NCBI GenBank assembly: GCA_015689735.1
Contig: WVSP01000001.1
Span: forward strand, 298,001 to 362,000
DNA: 64,000 nucleotides
From: Rhodobacterales bacterium LSUCC0031
GTDB lineage: Bacteria > Pseudomonadota > Alphaproteobacteria > Rhodobacterales > Rhodobacteraceae
Reading direction: 5' to 3'
Shown here one piece after another: positions 52,647-59,167 of this stretch; the first letter of the stretch is position 1; every line of letters starts with the position of its first letter. Under the pieces are notes generated by a model, which saw only the letters and a list, made by a program, of their open reading frames with translations, ran no database searches and was not told the DNA's origin. The position numbers and the translations under genes are program-made.

Positions 52647-53429
52647 ATGTTGATCGTGATTTCCCCTGCCAAGCGCCTTGATTGGGCCAACCGTGCGGTG
52701 GAGATGACGCAACCACGGTTTCATAGCGACGCACAGGCCCTCGCGGCCGTGGCGCGGGGCTTAAGTGCGGTGGAACTGGGCGATCTGATGGGTATCTCGC
52801 CTGCCTTGGCCGAACTCAATGCCGCGCGTTTTCGTGACTTCGACGCAGGCGGTGATGATCTGCGTCCGGCGGTGCTCGCCTTTGCAGGCGACACCTATCA
52901 GGGGCTCGAGGCGGCAAGCCTTGAGCCTGATCATCTAAGGTTTGCGCAAGAGCGGCTTTGTATCTTGTCGGGGCTTTATGGTGTGTTGCGCCCCCTCGAT
53001 GGCATCCGACCCTACCGGTTGGAAATGGGCAGCAGGCTGGCCAATCCGAAAGGGGCCAATCTTTATGCCTATTGGGGCGACAAGATCGCGCGCGCACTGA
53101 ATATGCAGGGTACCGAGATGGGGACCGACACGCTGATCAATTGCGCCTCGGTCGAGTATTTCGCAGCGGTTGATCCGGCGGCGCTGTCGTTGCAGGTGAT
53201 CACGCCGCAATTCTTCGAGGATAAGCCGGGCGGCCCCAAGATTGTGAGCTTTTTTGCAAAGAAGGCGCGCGGCGCGATGGCGCGCTTCATTATCGAGCGG
53301 CGGCTGACCGATCCGGCGGGGATATTGGATTTCGATCTTGGCGGTTATGCCTATGCCCCCGATCTAAGTGCGCCCGGCAAGCCGGCCTTTTTGCGCCGCG
53401 CAGAGGCGGCATCGCAAAGCGCAGCGTGA
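52647..53429 (+). CDS. yaaA: Peroxide stress protein YaaA
   Basis: A 260-residue DUF328 protein. MLIVISPAKRLDW starts the family, and GDTYQGLEA, YGVLRPLDGIRPYRLEMG and FFAKKARGAMARFI follow. In E. coli YaaA lowers free iron during peroxide stress and protects DNA. GGAG lies about 11 bases before the ATG. It converges on the rpoE-chrR operon, placing two oxidative-stress units side by side. Confidence 0.95.
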   Translation: MLIVISPAKRLDWANRAVEMTQPRFHSDAQALAAVARGLSAVELGDLMGISPALAELNAARFRDFDAGGDDLRPAVLAFAGDTYQGLEAASLEPDHLRFAQERLCILSGLYGVLRPLDGIRPYRLEMGSRLANPKGANLYAYWGDKIARALNMQGTEMGTDTLINCASVEYFAAVDPAALSLQVITPQFFEDKPGGPKIVSFFAKKARGAMARFIIERRLTDPAGILDFDLGGYAYAPDLSAPGKPAFLRRAEAASQSAA

Positions 53430-53719: not shown

Positions 53720-54364
53720 TCAAATACGCAAGAAGACTTGCGCGATCCGTGGCAACAACCCGTCAAAGCGCAGCCGCCCATCTGTCGCCACAAGGCAGAT
53801 ACAATCCTCACCATCATCATCAGCGATGGGGGTGTGGTGGGTTTGCTGGCCTGCCACCTCAAGGTCGCCACGTTGGTAATGCCCATCTTCCGAGCTGTAG
53901 CCGCCCTGAAGCACCAACGTCATCTCGGTGCCGCGATGGCTGTGTTCGGGCATGGCTTGGCCTGCGGGAATGTACAACAAACGCGCCGTGGCATTATTGT
54001 CGGAACACAGCACGGCTTGCTTGGTACCGCGCGCGATGTTTTTCCATTTCACAGCACCCGCATCCCCGCCAACGATCTTGCGCAATGGCGCAGGAAAGAC
54101 GCCACCCATCGGCGCGCTACGCTCTGTCGGCCCCATGCGCGAGATCTTGGCAAGTGTTTGTTCCAAACTGTCGGGGGCCAATTCCACCTCGTTCAGGTCG
54201 GACAGGACGGCCCCGCCCAATTCCTCGTAGCCCGCAAGGCGGACACGCGCATCATCATTCAGCGAGACATGGGTTGCGACGACCAGATCGAATGCTTGGG
54301 GCAGCACGCCAGCGGCATAGCCCATCAACAGATCATCTGGCACATGATGGCGAATGGCGGGCAT
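53720..54364 (-). CDS. chrR: ChrR-family anti-sigma factor, with a changed N-terminal zinc site
   Basis: A 214-residue ChrR: N-terminal anti-sigma domain (about 1-85) and C-terminal cupin (about 105-200) with metal candidates His141, His143, Glu147 and His177. In R. sphaeroides the N-terminal domain binds zinc through HX24HX3CX2C. Here His7 and His32 remain but the two cysteines are Asn36 and Ala39 (HVSLNDDARV). The codons are clear on the strand (AAT and GCG). AAGGAGG lies before the ATG. It is 9 bases after rpoE and should hold RpoE inactive until singlet oxygen stress; how it folds without the cysteines is open. Confidence 0.88.
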   Translation of the reverse strand: MPAIRHHVPDDLLMGYAAGVLPQAFDLVVATHVSLNDDARVRLAGYEELGGAVLSDLNEVELAPDSLEQTLAKISRMGPTERSAPMGGVFPAPLRKIVGGDAGAVKWKNIARGTKQAVLCSDNNATARLLYIPAGQAMPEHSHRGTEMTLVLQGGYSSEDGHYQRGDLEVAGQQTHHTPIADDDGEDCICLVATDGRLRFDGLLPRIAQVFLRI

Positions 54365-54373
54365 TCGACCTCC

Positions 54374-54952
54374 TTAATTCATTGCGTGGCGCAACCTTTC
54401 CAGCGCCAACCTAATGCGAGACTTGATCGTGCCAAGGGGCAATCCTGTTTCGGCCGCGATTTCGCTATGGGTAAGATCCCCGAAATAGGCCCGTTCGATC
54501 AACTCGCGCTGCTTTTTGGGAAGCTTGCGTACCGCCTCGGCCAGTTTCGTCGACTCTTGCTGCAAGGCGATGGCATCGGCTTGATCGGGGGCATTCTCCG
54601 GCCCCCAAGGGAGATCTTCGGGTTCCGGGCGGGCATAGCGGCGCAGCAGGTCGATCTTGCGGTTGCGCGCAATCGTGAAGATCCACGTCGCGACCGATGC
54701 CCGCGACGGGTCATAAAGATGCGCTTTATGCCAGAGCGTGGCCATCACGTCTTGCATGCACTCCTCCGCTAGGGCGTGGTCCGCCCCCGACTTGATCAAG
54801 AACGCCTTTACCCTTGGGGCGAAGTGTCGAAACACTTCGGCAAAAGCCTTTTGATCGTGGTGCTGCGCAATAGAAGCCATGTTGGCCACCCAATGCGCCT
54901 CTGTCTTTTCCAATACCGTCACGGTCGGGTCACGCCTTTCTGACTGACGCAT
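54374..54952 (-). CDS. rpoE: ECF sigma factor RpoE (singlet-oxygen/ChrR-controlled type)
   Basis: About 192 residues with sigma-2 (FAEVFRHFAPRVKAFLIKSGAD, ATWIFTIARNRKIDLLRR) and sigma-4 (LPKKQRELIERAYFGDLTH, GLPLGTIKSRIRLALERLR). The linker PEPEDLPWGPEN is typical of the ChrR-linked group. An ATG at 55024 is unlikely because a sigma-E promoter would start transcription there; I use the ATG at 54952, and a GTG at 54922 is possible. It is first in rpoE-chrR-small membrane protein and appears autoregulated. Confidence 0.92.
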   Translation of the reverse strand: MRQSERRDPTVTVLEKTEAHWVANMASIAQHHDQKAFAEVFRHFAPRVKAFLIKSGADHALAEECMQDVMATLWHKAHLYDPSRASVATWIFTIARNRKIDLLRRYARPEPEDLPWGPENAPDQADAIALQQESTKLAEAVRKLPKKQRELIERAYFGDLTHSEIAAETGLPLGTIKSRIRLALERLRHAMN

Positions 54953-55029
54953 AAAAGAGATGGCCGGTACCATCCCCCACAGGGCGTCAGCTGGCTGTTC
55001 AGCGTGGTCGTTCGAGGACAGCATAGCGC

Positions 55030-55058
55030 GTTTACGGGAATATCCCTAGTCTGGATCA
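55030..55058 (-). promoter_or_regulatory. Sigma-E promoter of rpoE-chrR
   Basis: Reading leftward, TGATCC (55053-55058), an 18-base spacer, and TAAAC (55030-55034), preceded by CCCG. This fits the TGATCC-N18-TAA form described for RpoE of R. sphaeroides. The start of transcription should fall near 55023. Confidence 0.75.
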
Positions 55059-55071
55059 AAACTATTTTCTT

Positions 55072-55100
55072 TGATCTGCTTGAGTTTGCTGCCCGTATGC
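55072..55100 (+). promoter_or_regulatory. Sigma-E promoter of the FAD-oxidoreductase operon
   Basis: TGATCT (55072-55077), an 18-base spacer ending CCCG, and TATGC (55096-55100). It mirrors the rpoE promoter on the other strand, with the same -35 core, spacer length and CCCGTA at the -10. It lies about 42 bases before the ATG at 55142. Confidence 0.65.
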
Positions 55101-55141
55101 TGAATGACGCAGTTTGCTAGGCTTTTAAGGGGACATCGCCG

Positions 55142-56434
55142 ATGCCATTCGAACAACCGGCCGCCGCGCCGAAACGGATCGCCGTGATCGGCGGTGGGAT
55201 CTCGGGGATGGGGGCCGCTTATCACCTTGCCGATTCGCATAGTGTCACCTTGTTCGAGGCCGAACCGCGCTTGGGCGGCCATGCGCGCACGGTTGTCGCG
55301 GGAAAGCGGGGCGATCAGCCGGTCGATACTGGCTTTATCGTCTTCAACTATGCGAACTACCCCAACCTAACCAAGCTCTTCGCCGCCCTCGATGTGCCGG
55401 TGACGAAATCTGACATGAGTTTCGCGGCCTCGATCGGCGGTGGCAGGATCGAGTATGGGCTGCGCAGCCTTTCAGCCTTGTTTGCGCAAAAGCGTAATCT
55501 CGCCAATCCCGCTTTCCTGCGGATGGTGCGTGACCTGTTGCGCTTCAATGCGGAGGCCGAGAAGGTCGCAACCGATGCGACAATCACCTTGGGTGAACTG
55601 ATGGACCAGATGCAGATGGGCCGCTGGTTTCGTGATTACTACCTGACGCCGATCTCAGGCGCGATCTGGTCAACCCCGAAAGAAGAAATCATGGATTTCC
55701 CGGCGCAGGCCTTGGTGCGGTTTTTCCGCAACCATCACCTGATGCAGACGACGGGCCAGCATCAATGGTGGACGGTGCAGGGTGGGTCCATCGAATATGT
55801 GACCCGGCTCGAACAGGCGCTTTTGGTCAAGGGGGTCGATATCCGCGTGGCCACCCCGATCAAGACGGTCAAGCGCAGTGGCCTTGGGGCTGAAATCTTG
55901 TGCGAAGGGCATTGGGATGTCTTCGACGAGGTGGTGTTCGCCACCCATTCCGACGATAGCCTTGCCATGCTCGCCGATCCGACACCCACCGAAACCGCGG
56001 CGCTGGGTGCCGTGCGCTACCAGCCAAATACAGCGGTCTTGCATGCCGATCCGCGTGCCATGCCCAAGCGGCGGGTCACATGGTCGTCGTGGAACTACAC
56101 CGAGCGGCAAGGCCATGAGGGTGGGCCAATCGACCTGACCTATTGGATGAATTGCCTGCAACCCATCCCCGAAAGCGACCCTCTTTTCGTGACGCTGAAC
56201 AGCCGCGCGCCGATCGACGAGTCATTGATCTATGACACGGCGGAATTCCGGCATCCGGTCTATGATCTGGCCGCATTGGCCGCCCAAGGCACAGTGCGGG
56301 CAATGAACGGCCAGAACAACACATGGTTCTGCGGAGCTTGGATGAAGAACGGCTTTCACGAAGACGGGTATGCCAGCGCGCTCGACGTTGTCGCGGCGAT
56401 GGCCGCGCGCGATCAGGCGCGATTGGCTGCATGA
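55142..56434 (+). CDS. FAD-dependent oxidoreductase (amine oxidase superfamily)
   Basis: A 430-residue flavoprotein with the FAD-binding loop VIGGGISGMGAAYHL and EAEPRLGGHARTV near the N-terminus, and a C-terminal FCGAWMKNGFHEDGYASAL flavin segment. Homologues next to rpoE-chrR in related bacteria belong to the sigma-E regulon and are tied to modified fatty acids. A sigma-E-like promoter lies upstream. It overlaps the DUF1365 gene by 4 bases. The substrate is not established. Confidence 0.88.
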   Translation: MPFEQPAAAPKRIAVIGGGISGMGAAYHLADSHSVTLFEAEPRLGGHARTVVAGKRGDQPVDTGFIVFNYANYPNLTKLFAALDVPVTKSDMSFAASIGGGRIEYGLRSLSALFAQKRNLANPAFLRMVRDLLRFNAEAEKVATDATITLGELMDQMQMGRWFRDYYLTPISGAIWSTPKEEIMDFPAQALVRFFRNHHLMQTTGQHQWWTVQGGSIEYVTRLEQALLVKGVDIRVATPIKTVKRSGLGAEILCEGHWDVFDEVVFATHSDDSLAMLADPTPTETAALGAVRYQPNTAVLHADPRAMPKRRVTWSSWNYTERQGHEGGPIDLTYWMNCLQPIPESDPLFVTLNSRAPIDESLIYDTAEFRHPVYDLAALAAQGTVRAMNGQNNTWFCGAWMKNGFHEDGYASALDVVAAMAARDQARLAA

Positions 56435-57192
56435 GCCTTGTGGAGCATATCGCCGCTTCGACCTTTCACGGGCGTCGCGGTGCGGTGGAGAACGCTTTTA
56501 CCTACTCCATCGACTATGTGCTTCTGGATGCCGAGGATCCGCAGCCGCGCGCGCCTTGGTTGTTCGGGCGCAACCGCGCCGGGCTGACATCGCTGCATGA
56601 CAGCGACCATGGCGGTCCGCCGAAGCATGGGCGCGGTGCGGCCTGGGCGCGAGCGGTTTTGAACAGTCACGGACTGGCCGATTTGACGGGCGGCACCCTC
56701 GCGCTTTTGGCACAGCCGCGCATGCTGGGACATGTGTTCAACCCTGTCTCATTTTGGCTCGCCCATGATGATGCAGGCGCGCTTCGTGCCGTGATCGCCG
56801 AAGTCTCGAACACCTTTGGCGACAGGCACAGCTATCTGTGCGCCCATACCGATCAGCGGCCCATCACGCGCGAGGATACGCTGCGCGCACAGAAGATTTT
56901 TCACGTCTCGCCGTTTCAGCCGATCGAAGGCGGCTACAGCTTCCGCTTCGACATCCGGGCCGAGCGGATCGGCATCTGGATCGACTACAGCACCGATGGT
57001 GAGGGGCTACTGGCCACGCTAACGGGCAGGCGCCGGGCGCTTTCGACCTGGGCGATCCTGCGCTCGGCCTTGCGTCGGCCTTTGGGTGCGCGCCGGGTGC
57101 TGGCGCTGATCCATTGGCAGGCGCTCAAGCTTTGGTGGAAGGGCGCGCCCTACCGAATGCGCCCCGCCCCGCCAGAGCAAGACGTCTCCTAG
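56431..57192 (+). CDS. DUF1365 domain-containing protein
   Basis: A 253-residue protein of the DUF1365 family. It has the N-terminal ASTFHGRRGAVENAFTYSIDY, the central MLGHVFNPVSFW, and the later KIFHVSPFQPIEGGYSFRF. The family almost always occurs with an FAD oxidoreductase and a cyclopropane-fatty-acid-synthase-like methyltransferase, but its reaction is unknown. Its ATG overlaps the stop of the oxidoreductase, and the MFS gene begins 1 base after its end. Confidence 0.9.
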   Translation: MSLVEHIAASTFHGRRGAVENAFTYSIDYVLLDAEDPQPRAPWLFGRNRAGLTSLHDSDHGGPPKHGRGAAWARAVLNSHGLADLTGGTLALLAQPRMLGHVFNPVSFWLAHDDAGALRAVIAEVSNTFGDRHSYLCAHTDQRPITREDTLRAQKIFHVSPFQPIEGGYSFRFDIRAERIGIWIDYSTDGEGLLATLTGRRRALSTWAILRSALRRPLGARRVLALIHWQALKLWWKGAPYRMRPAPPEQDVS

Positions 57193-57193
57193 G

Positions 57194-58423
57194 ATGGCAT
57201 CCGCACCCTCGCGCATGGGCTACGCGGCCTTTGCCGCGATGTTGGCGGCCGCTGGCCTACCTATCTATATCCACGCGCCCAAGGTCTATGTGGACGAGTT
57301 CGGTGTTAGCCTGACCGCCCTCGCTGGGGTCTTGTTCGCGCTGCGGCTGATCGATATGGTGCAAGACCCGGCCTTGGGCTGGCTTGCCGAGCGTTTGCAA
57401 GCCACGCGCGGATTGGCGGTGGCGCTCGGTGTCGCGGTCTTGGCGGGGTCCATGCTGGGGCTGTTCGCGGTGACGCCGCCCATCGCGCCGATTTGGTGGT
57501 TCGCGCTGATGATGACGGGGCTTTTCTCGGCGTTTTCGTTCCTGACGATCTGCATGTATGCCCAAGGCGTGGTCGCCGCACCGCAGCTTGGGGCGCAAGG
57601 CTTTCTGCGGCTGGCTGCATGGCGCGAGACGGGCGCGCTTTTGGGTGTCTGTGCCGCCTCGGTGGCGCCGACGCTTCTGGATGCGACGGGCGATCCCTAT
57701 GGCAATTTCGCGCTGGGCTTTGCACTGCTCTGCCTCGCCGCGCTGTGGCTGATGCGGCGCGATTGGGGTGCCGGTGCCGTCCCGACCGAGAGCGGCTTTC
57801 GCGCCGTTCTGGCCGACCCGGTCGCGCGGCGGCTGTTGCTTGTCGCGCTGATGAATGCGGCACCCGTGGCGGTCTCGTCCACCTTGTTCCTGTTCTATGT
57901 CGAAAGCGTACTGCAAGCACCGGGGTTTGAGGGGCCGCTGTTGCTTTTGTTCTTCCTTGCGGCGGCGTTCAGCGCGCCGCTTTGGTCACGCTTGGCGCAA
58001 GGCTACGGCGCGCGCGCGATGCTCTTGTCGGCAATGGGCTTGGCGATCGCCGCTTTCTCGGTCGTGCTGACGCTGGGGCCGGGCGACACAGGTGCCTTCG
58101 CGCTGGTCTGCCTTGTCTCGGGTGCCGCGCTTGGGGCCGATTTTGCCCTTCTGCCCGCGCTTTTCGCCCGCCGGATGGAACAGATCGCACCCGAGGCGGC
58201 GGCGGGCTTTGGCCTGTGGGCCTTTGTCTCGAAACTGACGCTCGCCTTTGCCGCCGTGGTGCTTTTGCCAGCGCTCGATGCGACGGGGTTCCAATCGGGG
58301 GGCGAAAACCCGCAAGGCGCGCTTGACCTCTTGACCTATCTTTATGCGCTGGTGCCATGCGTGCTGAAACTGGGTGCGATGGCGGTTCTGGCGACCACGC
58401 AGCTGCCGAAACAGGCGGTCTAA
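57194..58423 (+). CDS. MFS transporter (sugar:cation symporter-like)
   Basis: A 409-residue protein with about twelve hydrophobic segments in an MFS_2 pattern; the loop after segment two (LRLIDMVQDPALGWLAERL) is typical of that group. It may flip or export a lipid or lipid-like compound in this operon, but no substrate is known. It lies between the DUF1365 and SDR genes with 1 and 12 bases of spacing, so all four genes form one transcript. Confidence 0.85.
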   Translation: MASAPSRMGYAAFAAMLAAAGLPIYIHAPKVYVDEFGVSLTALAGVLFALRLIDMVQDPALGWLAERLQATRGLAVALGVAVLAGSMLGLFAVTPPIAPIWWFALMMTGLFSAFSFLTICMYAQGVVAAPQLGAQGFLRLAAWRETGALLGVCAASVAPTLLDATGDPYGNFALGFALLCLAALWLMRRDWGAGAVPTESGFRAVLADPVARRLLLVALMNAAPVAVSSTLFLFYVESVLQAPGFEGPLLLLFFLAAAFSAPLWSRLAQGYGARAMLLSAMGLAIAAFSVVLTLGPGDTGAFALVCLVSGAALGADFALLPALFARRMEQIAPEAAAGFGLWAFVSKLTLAFAAVVLLPALDATGFQSGGENPQGALDLLTYLYALVPCVLKLGAMAVLATTQLPKQAV

Positions 58424-58435
58424 AAGGGTGCGTTG

Positions 58436-59167
58436 ATGCGGGATTTCAAGGACAAACGCTATTGGCTGGTCGGCGCCTCCGAGGGGCTTGGCCGCGCGCT
58501 GGCCGTCAAGCTCAGCCAAGCGGGGGCCGAGGTGATCTTGTCGGCGCGCTCGACCGATCGGCTGGACGCGCTCGCCGCCGACCTTCCCGGCCCGGCGCAG
58601 GTCGTCGCGATGGATATCGCTGATCGTGACAGCGTGGCGAAGGCTTGGGACGCGGTGGGCCAGATCGATGGAATGGTGTTTCTGGCCGGTGTCTATTGGC
58701 CCCAATCGGCAAAAGCGTGGAACGGCCCCGAGGTCGAGGCGATGTTCGATATCAACCTGATCGGTGCCGCGCGCGTTCTGGCCCATGTCGTGCCTGATTT
58801 CGTGGCCCGCGACCAGGGCCATATCGTGCTGACCGGCAGCCTGTCAGGCTTTCGCGGGTTGCCCGGCGCGATCGGCTATGCGGCCTCCAAGGCGGGGCTT
58901 TATTCGCTGGCGGAATCGCTCGATGGCGACCTCAAGGATACGGGCGTCGATGTGCAGCTTGTGAACCCCGGCTTCATCCGCACGCGGCTGACCGACAAGA
59001 ATGATTTCACCATGCCCTTCATCATGGACCCAGACCCCGCCGCGCAGATTTTCTTCGACCATATGCAGCGTGGCGGTTTCGCGCGGCATTTCCCGACGCT
59101 GTTCAGCCTCGTGTTCCGGCTGAGCGTGTTTTTGCCCCACGGGCTGTATCGGCGCCTGTTTTTCTGA
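58436..59167 (+). CDS. Short-chain dehydrogenase/reductase
   Basis: A 243-residue SDR with the cofactor loop GASEGLGRALA (residues 14-24), the active-site Ser and YxxxK (IGYAASKAGLYS), and a C-terminal hydrophobic segment (LFSLVFRLSVFLPHGLY) that may bind membrane. AAGGG lies 7 bases before the ATG at 58436. It is the last gene of the sigma-E operon. An acyl or lipid substrate is inferred from the neighbours. Confidence 0.9.
   Translation: MRDFKDKRYWLVGASEGLGRALAVKLSQAGAEVILSARSTDRLDALAADLPGPAQVVAMDIADRDSVAKAWDAVGQIDGMVFLAGVYWPQSAKAWNGPEVEAMFDINLIGAARVLAHVVPDFVARDQGHIVLTGSLSGFRGLPGAIGYAASKAGLYSLAESLDGDLKDTGVDVQLVNPGFIRTRLTDKNDFTMPFIMDPDPAAQIFFDHMQRGGFARHFPTLFSLVFRLSVFLPHGLYRRLFF

Follow-up and report, generated by a model that had tools for sequence, protein, structure and literature searches.

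The window, that is, the whole stretch of 64,000 nucleotides that was analysed, encodes a ChrR whose anti-sigma domain (ASD) lacks both of the cysteines that serve as zinc ligands in R. sphaeroides ChrR. We consider it likely that the protein functions as a ChrR whose anti-sigma domain has given up the use of zinc, and that release falls to the cupin domain and to proteolysis. Since the thiolates are missing while the rest of the checked system is kept, a zinc-free working ASD is the simplest reading. From the comparative data given below, we infer that zinc is absent from the ASD, that RpoE is held and that the singlet-oxygen response is kept.

The window protein and the loss of the zinc cysteines

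The chrR open reading frame is located at 53720..54364 on the minus strand (ATG at 54364, stop at 53720) and codes for 214 amino acids, comprising the ASD and a ChrR cupin-like domain (CLD). The ASD corresponds to residues 1-76 (54137..54364, minus strand), and the CLD to residues 90-214 (53723..54097, minus strand), in which H141, H143, E147 and H177, as well as C188 and C190, are kept. The protein scored 180 bits against the ChrR family model TIGR02451 over residues 6-213 (curated cut-off 124.5), and its C-terminal half scored 55.3 bits against Cupin_7 (cut-off 27); the score against the equivalog NF051881 (cadmium/peroxide/UV responsive ChrR) was 139.4 bits, below its cut-off of 300. A phmmer comparison with PDB chain 2z2s_B (R. 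sphaeroides ChrR) gave an E value of 2.7e-52, with residues 3-75 aligned gap-free. In this alignment, His7 (codon CAT, 54344-54346, minus strand) and His32 (CAT, 54269-54271, minus strand) stand opposite the zinc ligands His6 and His31, whereas Asn36 (AAT, 54257-54259, minus strand) and Ala39 (GCG, 54248-54250, minus strand) replace the zinc ligands Cys35 and Cys38. The residues H141, H143, E147 and H177 stand opposite the cupin ligands. Thus, the alignment bears out what the first-pass annotation had read from the sequence, namely a His7/His32 pair in HX24H spacing, Asn36 and Ala39 at the Cys positions and a complete set of cupin metal residues; its coordinates were likewise right, with the minus strand left unstated. 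Zinc-binding anti-sigma (ZAS) proteins are defined by an H-X3-C-X2-C signature. Where the ZAS motif requires H-X24-H-X3-C-X2-C, the window ChrR reads H7-X24-H32-X3-N36-X2-A39, and cysteine occurs in the protein only at positions 120, 188 and 190 of the cupin domain, so that the ASD has none.

AlphaFold2 modelled the window ChrR as four ASD helices (residues 10-18, 23-35, 37-56 and 66-75) plus a cupin at a pLDDT of 89, a confidence that is no gauge of zinc-free stability and was obtained from input alignments that included zinc-type relatives. Within the ASD, the pLDDT was 86-97 per 10-residue block, except for 63 at residues 51-60. A relative without any of the four zinc ligands (L051) also gave four ASD helices plus a cupin, at a pLDDT of 90. 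For both models, the six best Foldseek matches were the ChrR chains of 2q1z/2z2s. A ChrR fold is hence predicted for the window protein by modelling. On the strength of its sequence, its predicted fold, its cupin and its gene pair, we classed it as a ChrR and not as a ZAS protein.

ChrR was present in all 13 genomes of the genus, and both cysteines were absent in every one of them. The three nearest genomes share the N/A pair at positions 36/39, and Roseicyclus MAGs match the window ChrR at 89 and 94% identity. Because these three genomes agree on the pair and 13/13 lack the cysteines, a sequencing error at the Cys codons was excluded in practice. The own genome (96.28% complete) contained one ChrR match at E <= 0.01, and no second, canonical ChrR controlling RpoE was found in it. 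The other genomes of the genus also showed one match each, except for G008, which has two (G008:C17 and G008:C23; L002 and L014) of equal score and identity that are identical where compared; these probably represent an assembly duplication. A scan of viral sequences found no relative.

To place this loss in the family, 296 genomes were drawn from the GTDB family, one per genus, of which 239 matched. ChrR was read in 215 of the matching genomes and in G033 (outside the draw), giving 216 genera; the 24 matching genomes left unread were among the lower-scoring ones. Both cysteines were found in 203 of these genera, only the first in four and neither in nine. Since 203/216 genera keep both, loss of the two cysteines is not ordinary variation in the family.

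A tree of joined ChrR (ligand columns omitted) and RpoE sequences, built from 64 hand-chosen rows, placed the window in a 21-row clade with support of 100/100. This clade consists of the 13 genus genomes, L015, L036, L042-L046 and L051, that is, eight coded genera plus L036. Both cysteines are absent in 20 of the 21 rows, the exception being L015 with Cys36. At positions 7, 32, 36 and 39, the ligand states were HHSA in seven rows, HHNA in five, NHSA in two and THSA in two, with THNA, SHCA (L015), QHSV, NHSS and PADA (L051) in one row each; in L051, none of the four zinc ligands is left, as both His are replaced. H32 is kept in 20/21 rows, whereas H7 is replaced in nine (by N, T or Q in seven, S in L015 and P in L051). 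As H7 is lost in 9/21 rows and both His are lost in L051, the clade as a whole does not conserve the remaining H7/H32 pair as a metal site. The first-pass annotation had suggested seeing whether the Asn/Ala pair forms a clade. Cysteine loss does mark one (S/A, N/A, S/S, S/V, D/A, and C/A in L015), but the Asn/Ala pair itself does not; Asn36 was found in 6/21 rows, which do not group together but lie in three parts of the tree, namely in the window's sub-branch, in L011 and in L046, and Ser is commoner.

Two members of the clade deserve mention in their own right. The ChrR of L015 (L015:1501-2139) carries Cys36 and lacks H7 and C39; because these two are also absent, Cys36 is possibly a regained cysteine, with a late second loss of Cys36 in L015's sisters as a conceivable alternative. 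This lone Cys36 could act as a redox thiol. The ChrR-RpoE of L036, from a record labelled Maritalea mobilis, was placed inside the Roseicyclus-side clade, which reflects either a mislabelled record or a transfer.

Outside the clade, ligand changes were observed in L050 (HHSS), L018 and L143 (QHCA), L214 (HQDA) and L249 (QHCA), all at loci where chrR shares its strand with an RpoE-like gene. L214 and the second QHCA case, L249, lie in the family's other major ChrR branch. The placement of L050 is moderate (92/88, 64-row tree), and that of L214 and L249 is weak (open or under-90 forks, quick tree). In a 234-row tree, five changes were counted by parsimony at position 39, and four, eight and two at positions 36, 7 and 32, respectively. 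In both of these separate QHCA lines, H7 and the second cysteine are gone and the first cysteine remains. This pattern fits the phenotypes reported for V. cholerae ChrR, in which C33S, at the first Cys, showed elevated expression whatever the light and C36S was wild-type-like (PMC11976125).

The rows L001, L014 and L032-L035 were dropped as repeats. Ten rows without an RpoE row above 150 bits, including L021, L029-L031 and L037-L041, were left out of a 171-row tree, and five repeated ids plus seven far or sigma-less rows (L030, L031, L037-L041) were left out of the 234-row tree. Among these, L037, L038, L039, L041 and L030 (Roseibium, Blastochloris, a Hyphomicrobiales MAG and G054) code for ChrR-like cupins with degenerate zinc motifs. 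No same-strand RpoE-like gene was found within the fetched stretch at these five loci, which are perhaps orphan ChrR-like cupins.

Reaction-centre genes (PF00124) were found in 8/9 genera with neither cysteine, 2/4 with one and 84/202 with both (Fisher p 0.011, uncorrected, with seven of the nine genera being one clade). When phylogeny is considered, the link of phototrophy to cysteine loss is weak. The own genome carries reaction-centre genes, as do 18 of the 20 clade genomes tested (all rows but L036); the two genomes without them were G009 (84% complete) and G011 (92% complete).

Selection, gene context and linked residues

Next, we analyzed the constraint on the ASD. Twelve pairs within the genus gave a dN/dS of 0.04-0.20 for the ASD (at most 0.08 for residues 3-55), values that cover this genus alone and include pairs in which dS is saturated (up to 3.2). 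Among nine clade rows (one per coded genus plus L036), the ASD/CLD divergence ratio was 1.05, as against a mean of 1.51 (range 1.09-2.09) in 207 overlapping canonical neighbourhoods of nine. Measured against the cupin, the ASD is thus under tighter constraint than that of any of the 207 canonical neighbourhoods. The ASD/RpoE ratio was low too, yet inside the canonical range, with 19/207 overlapping neighbourhoods as low, and the CLD/RpoE divergence was 1.37 compared with a canonical mean of 1.18 (26/207 neighbourhoods as high). The ASD core has thus been held more tightly after the loss of the zinc site, as would be expected if side-chain packing replaced the metal.

The gene context was similarly kept. 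The rpoE gene (54374..55024, minus strand), coding for the ECF sigma factor of the RpoE/ChrR (ECF11) pair with Sigma70_r2 and r4, lies 9 bases upstream of chrR, and rpoE is directly upstream on the same strand in the 20 other clade rows as well. A pattern search identified the promoter TGATCC-N18-TAAACG of rpoE-chrR at 55029..55058 (minus strand). Its general form, TGATC[CT]-N17-19-TA, which we take to be the sigma-E-type promoter consensus, was present before rpoE in 21/21 clade loci (as TGATCC-N18-TA) and 143/150 canonical loci, and in 52/3600 mononucleotide shuffles. On the divergent strand, the pattern was found in 18/21 clade loci, and a divergent ufaD-like gene in 21/21, compared with 132/147 canonical loci. 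The cupin ligands HHEH were present in 246/246 rows (five rows repeat a locus). Such conservation is evidence of function, and not of which function.

We also observed residues particular to the clade in both partners. In ChrR, the clade carries Q for E23, V/A for T20, L/M/I at position 57, G for A/S45 and V/I for A192; in RpoE, numbered as in the window protein, it carries A for R53, M for T/A90, Y for F104, Y for Q130 and A for R131. On the cupin side, A192 is V/I in 21/21 rows, V114 is replaced in 17, Y97 is replaced in at least 20, P197 is R/K in 18 and Cys120 occurs in 11. ChrR E23 pairs with RpoE R/K131 in 130/147 canonical pairs, and Q pairs with A in 17/21 clade rows. The link is loose among the canonical pairs, six of which lack only E, six only R/K and five both, and L046, the first branch of the clade, retains E23 with R131. 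This linked change suggests, without proving it, that ChrR and RpoE of the clade still touch.

Proposed mechanism and alternative readings

In the reading that we prefer, a hydrophobic three-helix core and helix 4 would fold and hold the cognate RpoE without a Zn(His2Cys2) site, and RpoE would be released through the metal-binding cupin domain and ChrR proteolysis. These release steps would be the ones that need the cupin ligands and RSP_1090/1091 in R. sphaeroides, likely homologues of which are encoded divergently beside rpoE-chrR here. In R. sphaeroides, the ASD is reported to hold sigma-E, with zinc binding described as necessary (PMC6852236). The singlet-oxygen response is reported to need the CLD ligands E147 and H177, but not Cys187/189 (PMC6852236), and to need the cupin domain and ChrR turnover dependent on RSP_1090/1091 (PMC6852236, PMC3818230). 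Zinc-stripped RsiW reportedly still binds SigW (PMC5358783), and RseA is described as having anti-sigma function without a zinc site (PMC7406223). The reported weakening of the sigma complex upon zinc release from RsrA (PMC4960319), however, counts against the zinc-free reading; by analogy, so would the elevated expression of V. cholerae C33S, the wild-type-like C36S notwithstanding. More tentatively, and as a proposal that falls somewhat short of probable, the clade's singlet-oxygen signalling may run via RpoE-ChrR without ASD zinc thiolates, such that the zinc finger would be neither a necessary clamp nor a necessary singlet-oxygen sensor and the trigger would lie wholly in the cupin and gated proteolysis, partly rewired by the clade-specific cupin and RpoE changes.

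The first-pass annotation had left three options, namely a fold that is stable without zinc, a variant that senses and releases RpoE differently, or a decayed site. Conservation, the predicted fold and the clade-specific RpoE changes give the zinc-free stable fold the best, albeit indirect, support, whereas strong purifying selection and the kept gene context disfavour decay. Decay of the anti-sigma function, with RpoE free or otherwise controlled, would agree with the loss of at least two ligands of a site reported to be needed for inhibition in R. sphaeroides (PMC6852236). It is nevertheless very improbable because the dN/dS of the ASD is low, the ASD shows a tighter constraint, measured against the cupin, than zinc-type lineages do, and chrR persists in eight coded genera and in L036 together with rpoE, the promoter and the ufaD-like gene; furthermore, the own genome has one ChrR match. 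A further alternative is that the sequence is wrong at these codons, or that another, canonical ChrR encoded elsewhere controls the RpoE of this locus. About 4% of the own genome may be missing and could hide such a copy, yet the agreement of 13/13 genomes and the single match in the own genome make this next to impossible.

A change in the sensor is a doubtful but genuine possibility, in which RpoE would still be held and the release trigger would have changed with the loss of the thiolates, for example through clade-particular cupin residues, giving a signal spectrum that differs from that of R. sphaeroides ChrR. The cupin changes at A192, V114, Y97, P197 and Cys120 and the above-average CLD/RpoE divergence are consistent with it, and a model peptide of the R. 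sphaeroides ASD is reported to have zinc thiolates that react fast with singlet oxygen (PMC6432622); against it, the cupin metal ligands are unchanged in every row and the CLD divergence lies inside the canonical range. That the site binds zinc or another metal via other residues (H6, H7, H32, D37, D38) seems improbable. H6 is invariant in 45 aligned proteins, H32 is kept in all but one clade row and most rows have acidic residues after position 36; however, H6 is equally invariant in the zinc-type proteins of the same alignment, H7 is replaced in nine clade rows, L051 has neither H7 nor H32, and the ASD cysteines are all gone in the window protein.

Among known systems, R. sphaeroides ChrR (PDB 2Q1Z, 2Z2S; TIGR02451; sigma-E/RpoE partner, ECF11) shares with the window ChrR the domain order, cupin ligands, rpoE-chrR pair, promoter type, ufaD/ufaO-type neighbours and predicted fold. 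In contrast, the window ChrR lacks both ASD zinc cysteines, and clade relatives also lack one or both His. The ZAS proteins RsrA, RslA and RsiW have the same ASD fold, as predicted here, but carry the H-X3-C-X2-C that is absent in the window ChrR. Similarly to the window ChrR, E. coli RseA and M. tuberculosis RskA (zinc-independent class I) have an ASD without the zinc motif; they are, however, assigned to other ASD groups (AS02, AS19-1; PMC7406223), whereas the present case is a loss inside the ChrR group, in a protein with a cupin. Non-zinc anti-sigma domains are described as common, and AS19-1 and AS27 are reported to hold both zinc and non-zinc members, as the ChrR group does here; the passages of the same source drawn on here contain no such statement for AS11, the ChrR group (PMC7406223). 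A ChrR without zinc cysteines was not described among the titles and abstract starts listed in the open-licence PMC literature.

The precise role of ASD zinc in the singlet-oxygen response was called unknown in a 2019 review (PMC6852236). In the model-peptide work, the fast thiolate reaction is taken by its authors to favour a role in sensing (PMC6432622). This chemistry indicates that the zinc finger could be a singlet-oxygen sensor, while genetics points to the cupin domain. Natural ChrRs free of zinc thiolates, in organisms with reaction-centre genes, can separate these two sensing models. The clade also supplies, within a protein that is otherwise similar, a set of residues that may allow an anti-sigma domain to do without zinc. 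If the ASD does work without zinc and release does come through the cupin domain and proteolysis, the zinc finger would be needed neither to hold RpoE nor to sense.

Genes around the rpoE-chrR pair

The first ATG of the rpoE frame (55024) lies only 4 bases beyond the -10 element (55029-55034, minus strand); because of this closeness, the true RpoE start is probably internal, downstream of this ATG. A divergent sigma-E-type promoter, TGATCT-N18-TATGCT (55072..55101, plus strand), was read from the sequence. It is followed on the plus strand by genes for a ufaD-like flavin amine oxidase (55142..56434; PF01593) at the position of RSP_1091 and a ufaO-like DUF1365 protein (56431..57192; PF07103, 243 bits) at that of RSP_1090, names that are given by position and Pfam alone rather than by comparison with the R. 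sphaeroides sequences. An MFS/GPH-type transporter (57194..58423, plus strand; PF13347) and a short-chain dehydrogenase (58433..59167, plus strand; PF00106) probably belong to the same operon. The R. sphaeroides RSP_1091-1087 operon is reported to have five genes, the first two being ufaD and ufaO (PMC3818230, PMC7380195); the divergent genes at 55142-59167 are similar, with one gene fewer. On the other side, a gene for a YaaA peroxide-stress protein (52647-53429, plus strand) adjoins the rpoE-chrR locus. Two cyclopropane-synthase-type methyltransferases (PF02353) were found at G000:C2:589852-590667 and C3:277679-278473, one of which may act as UfaM alongside the ufaD/ufaO-like genes.
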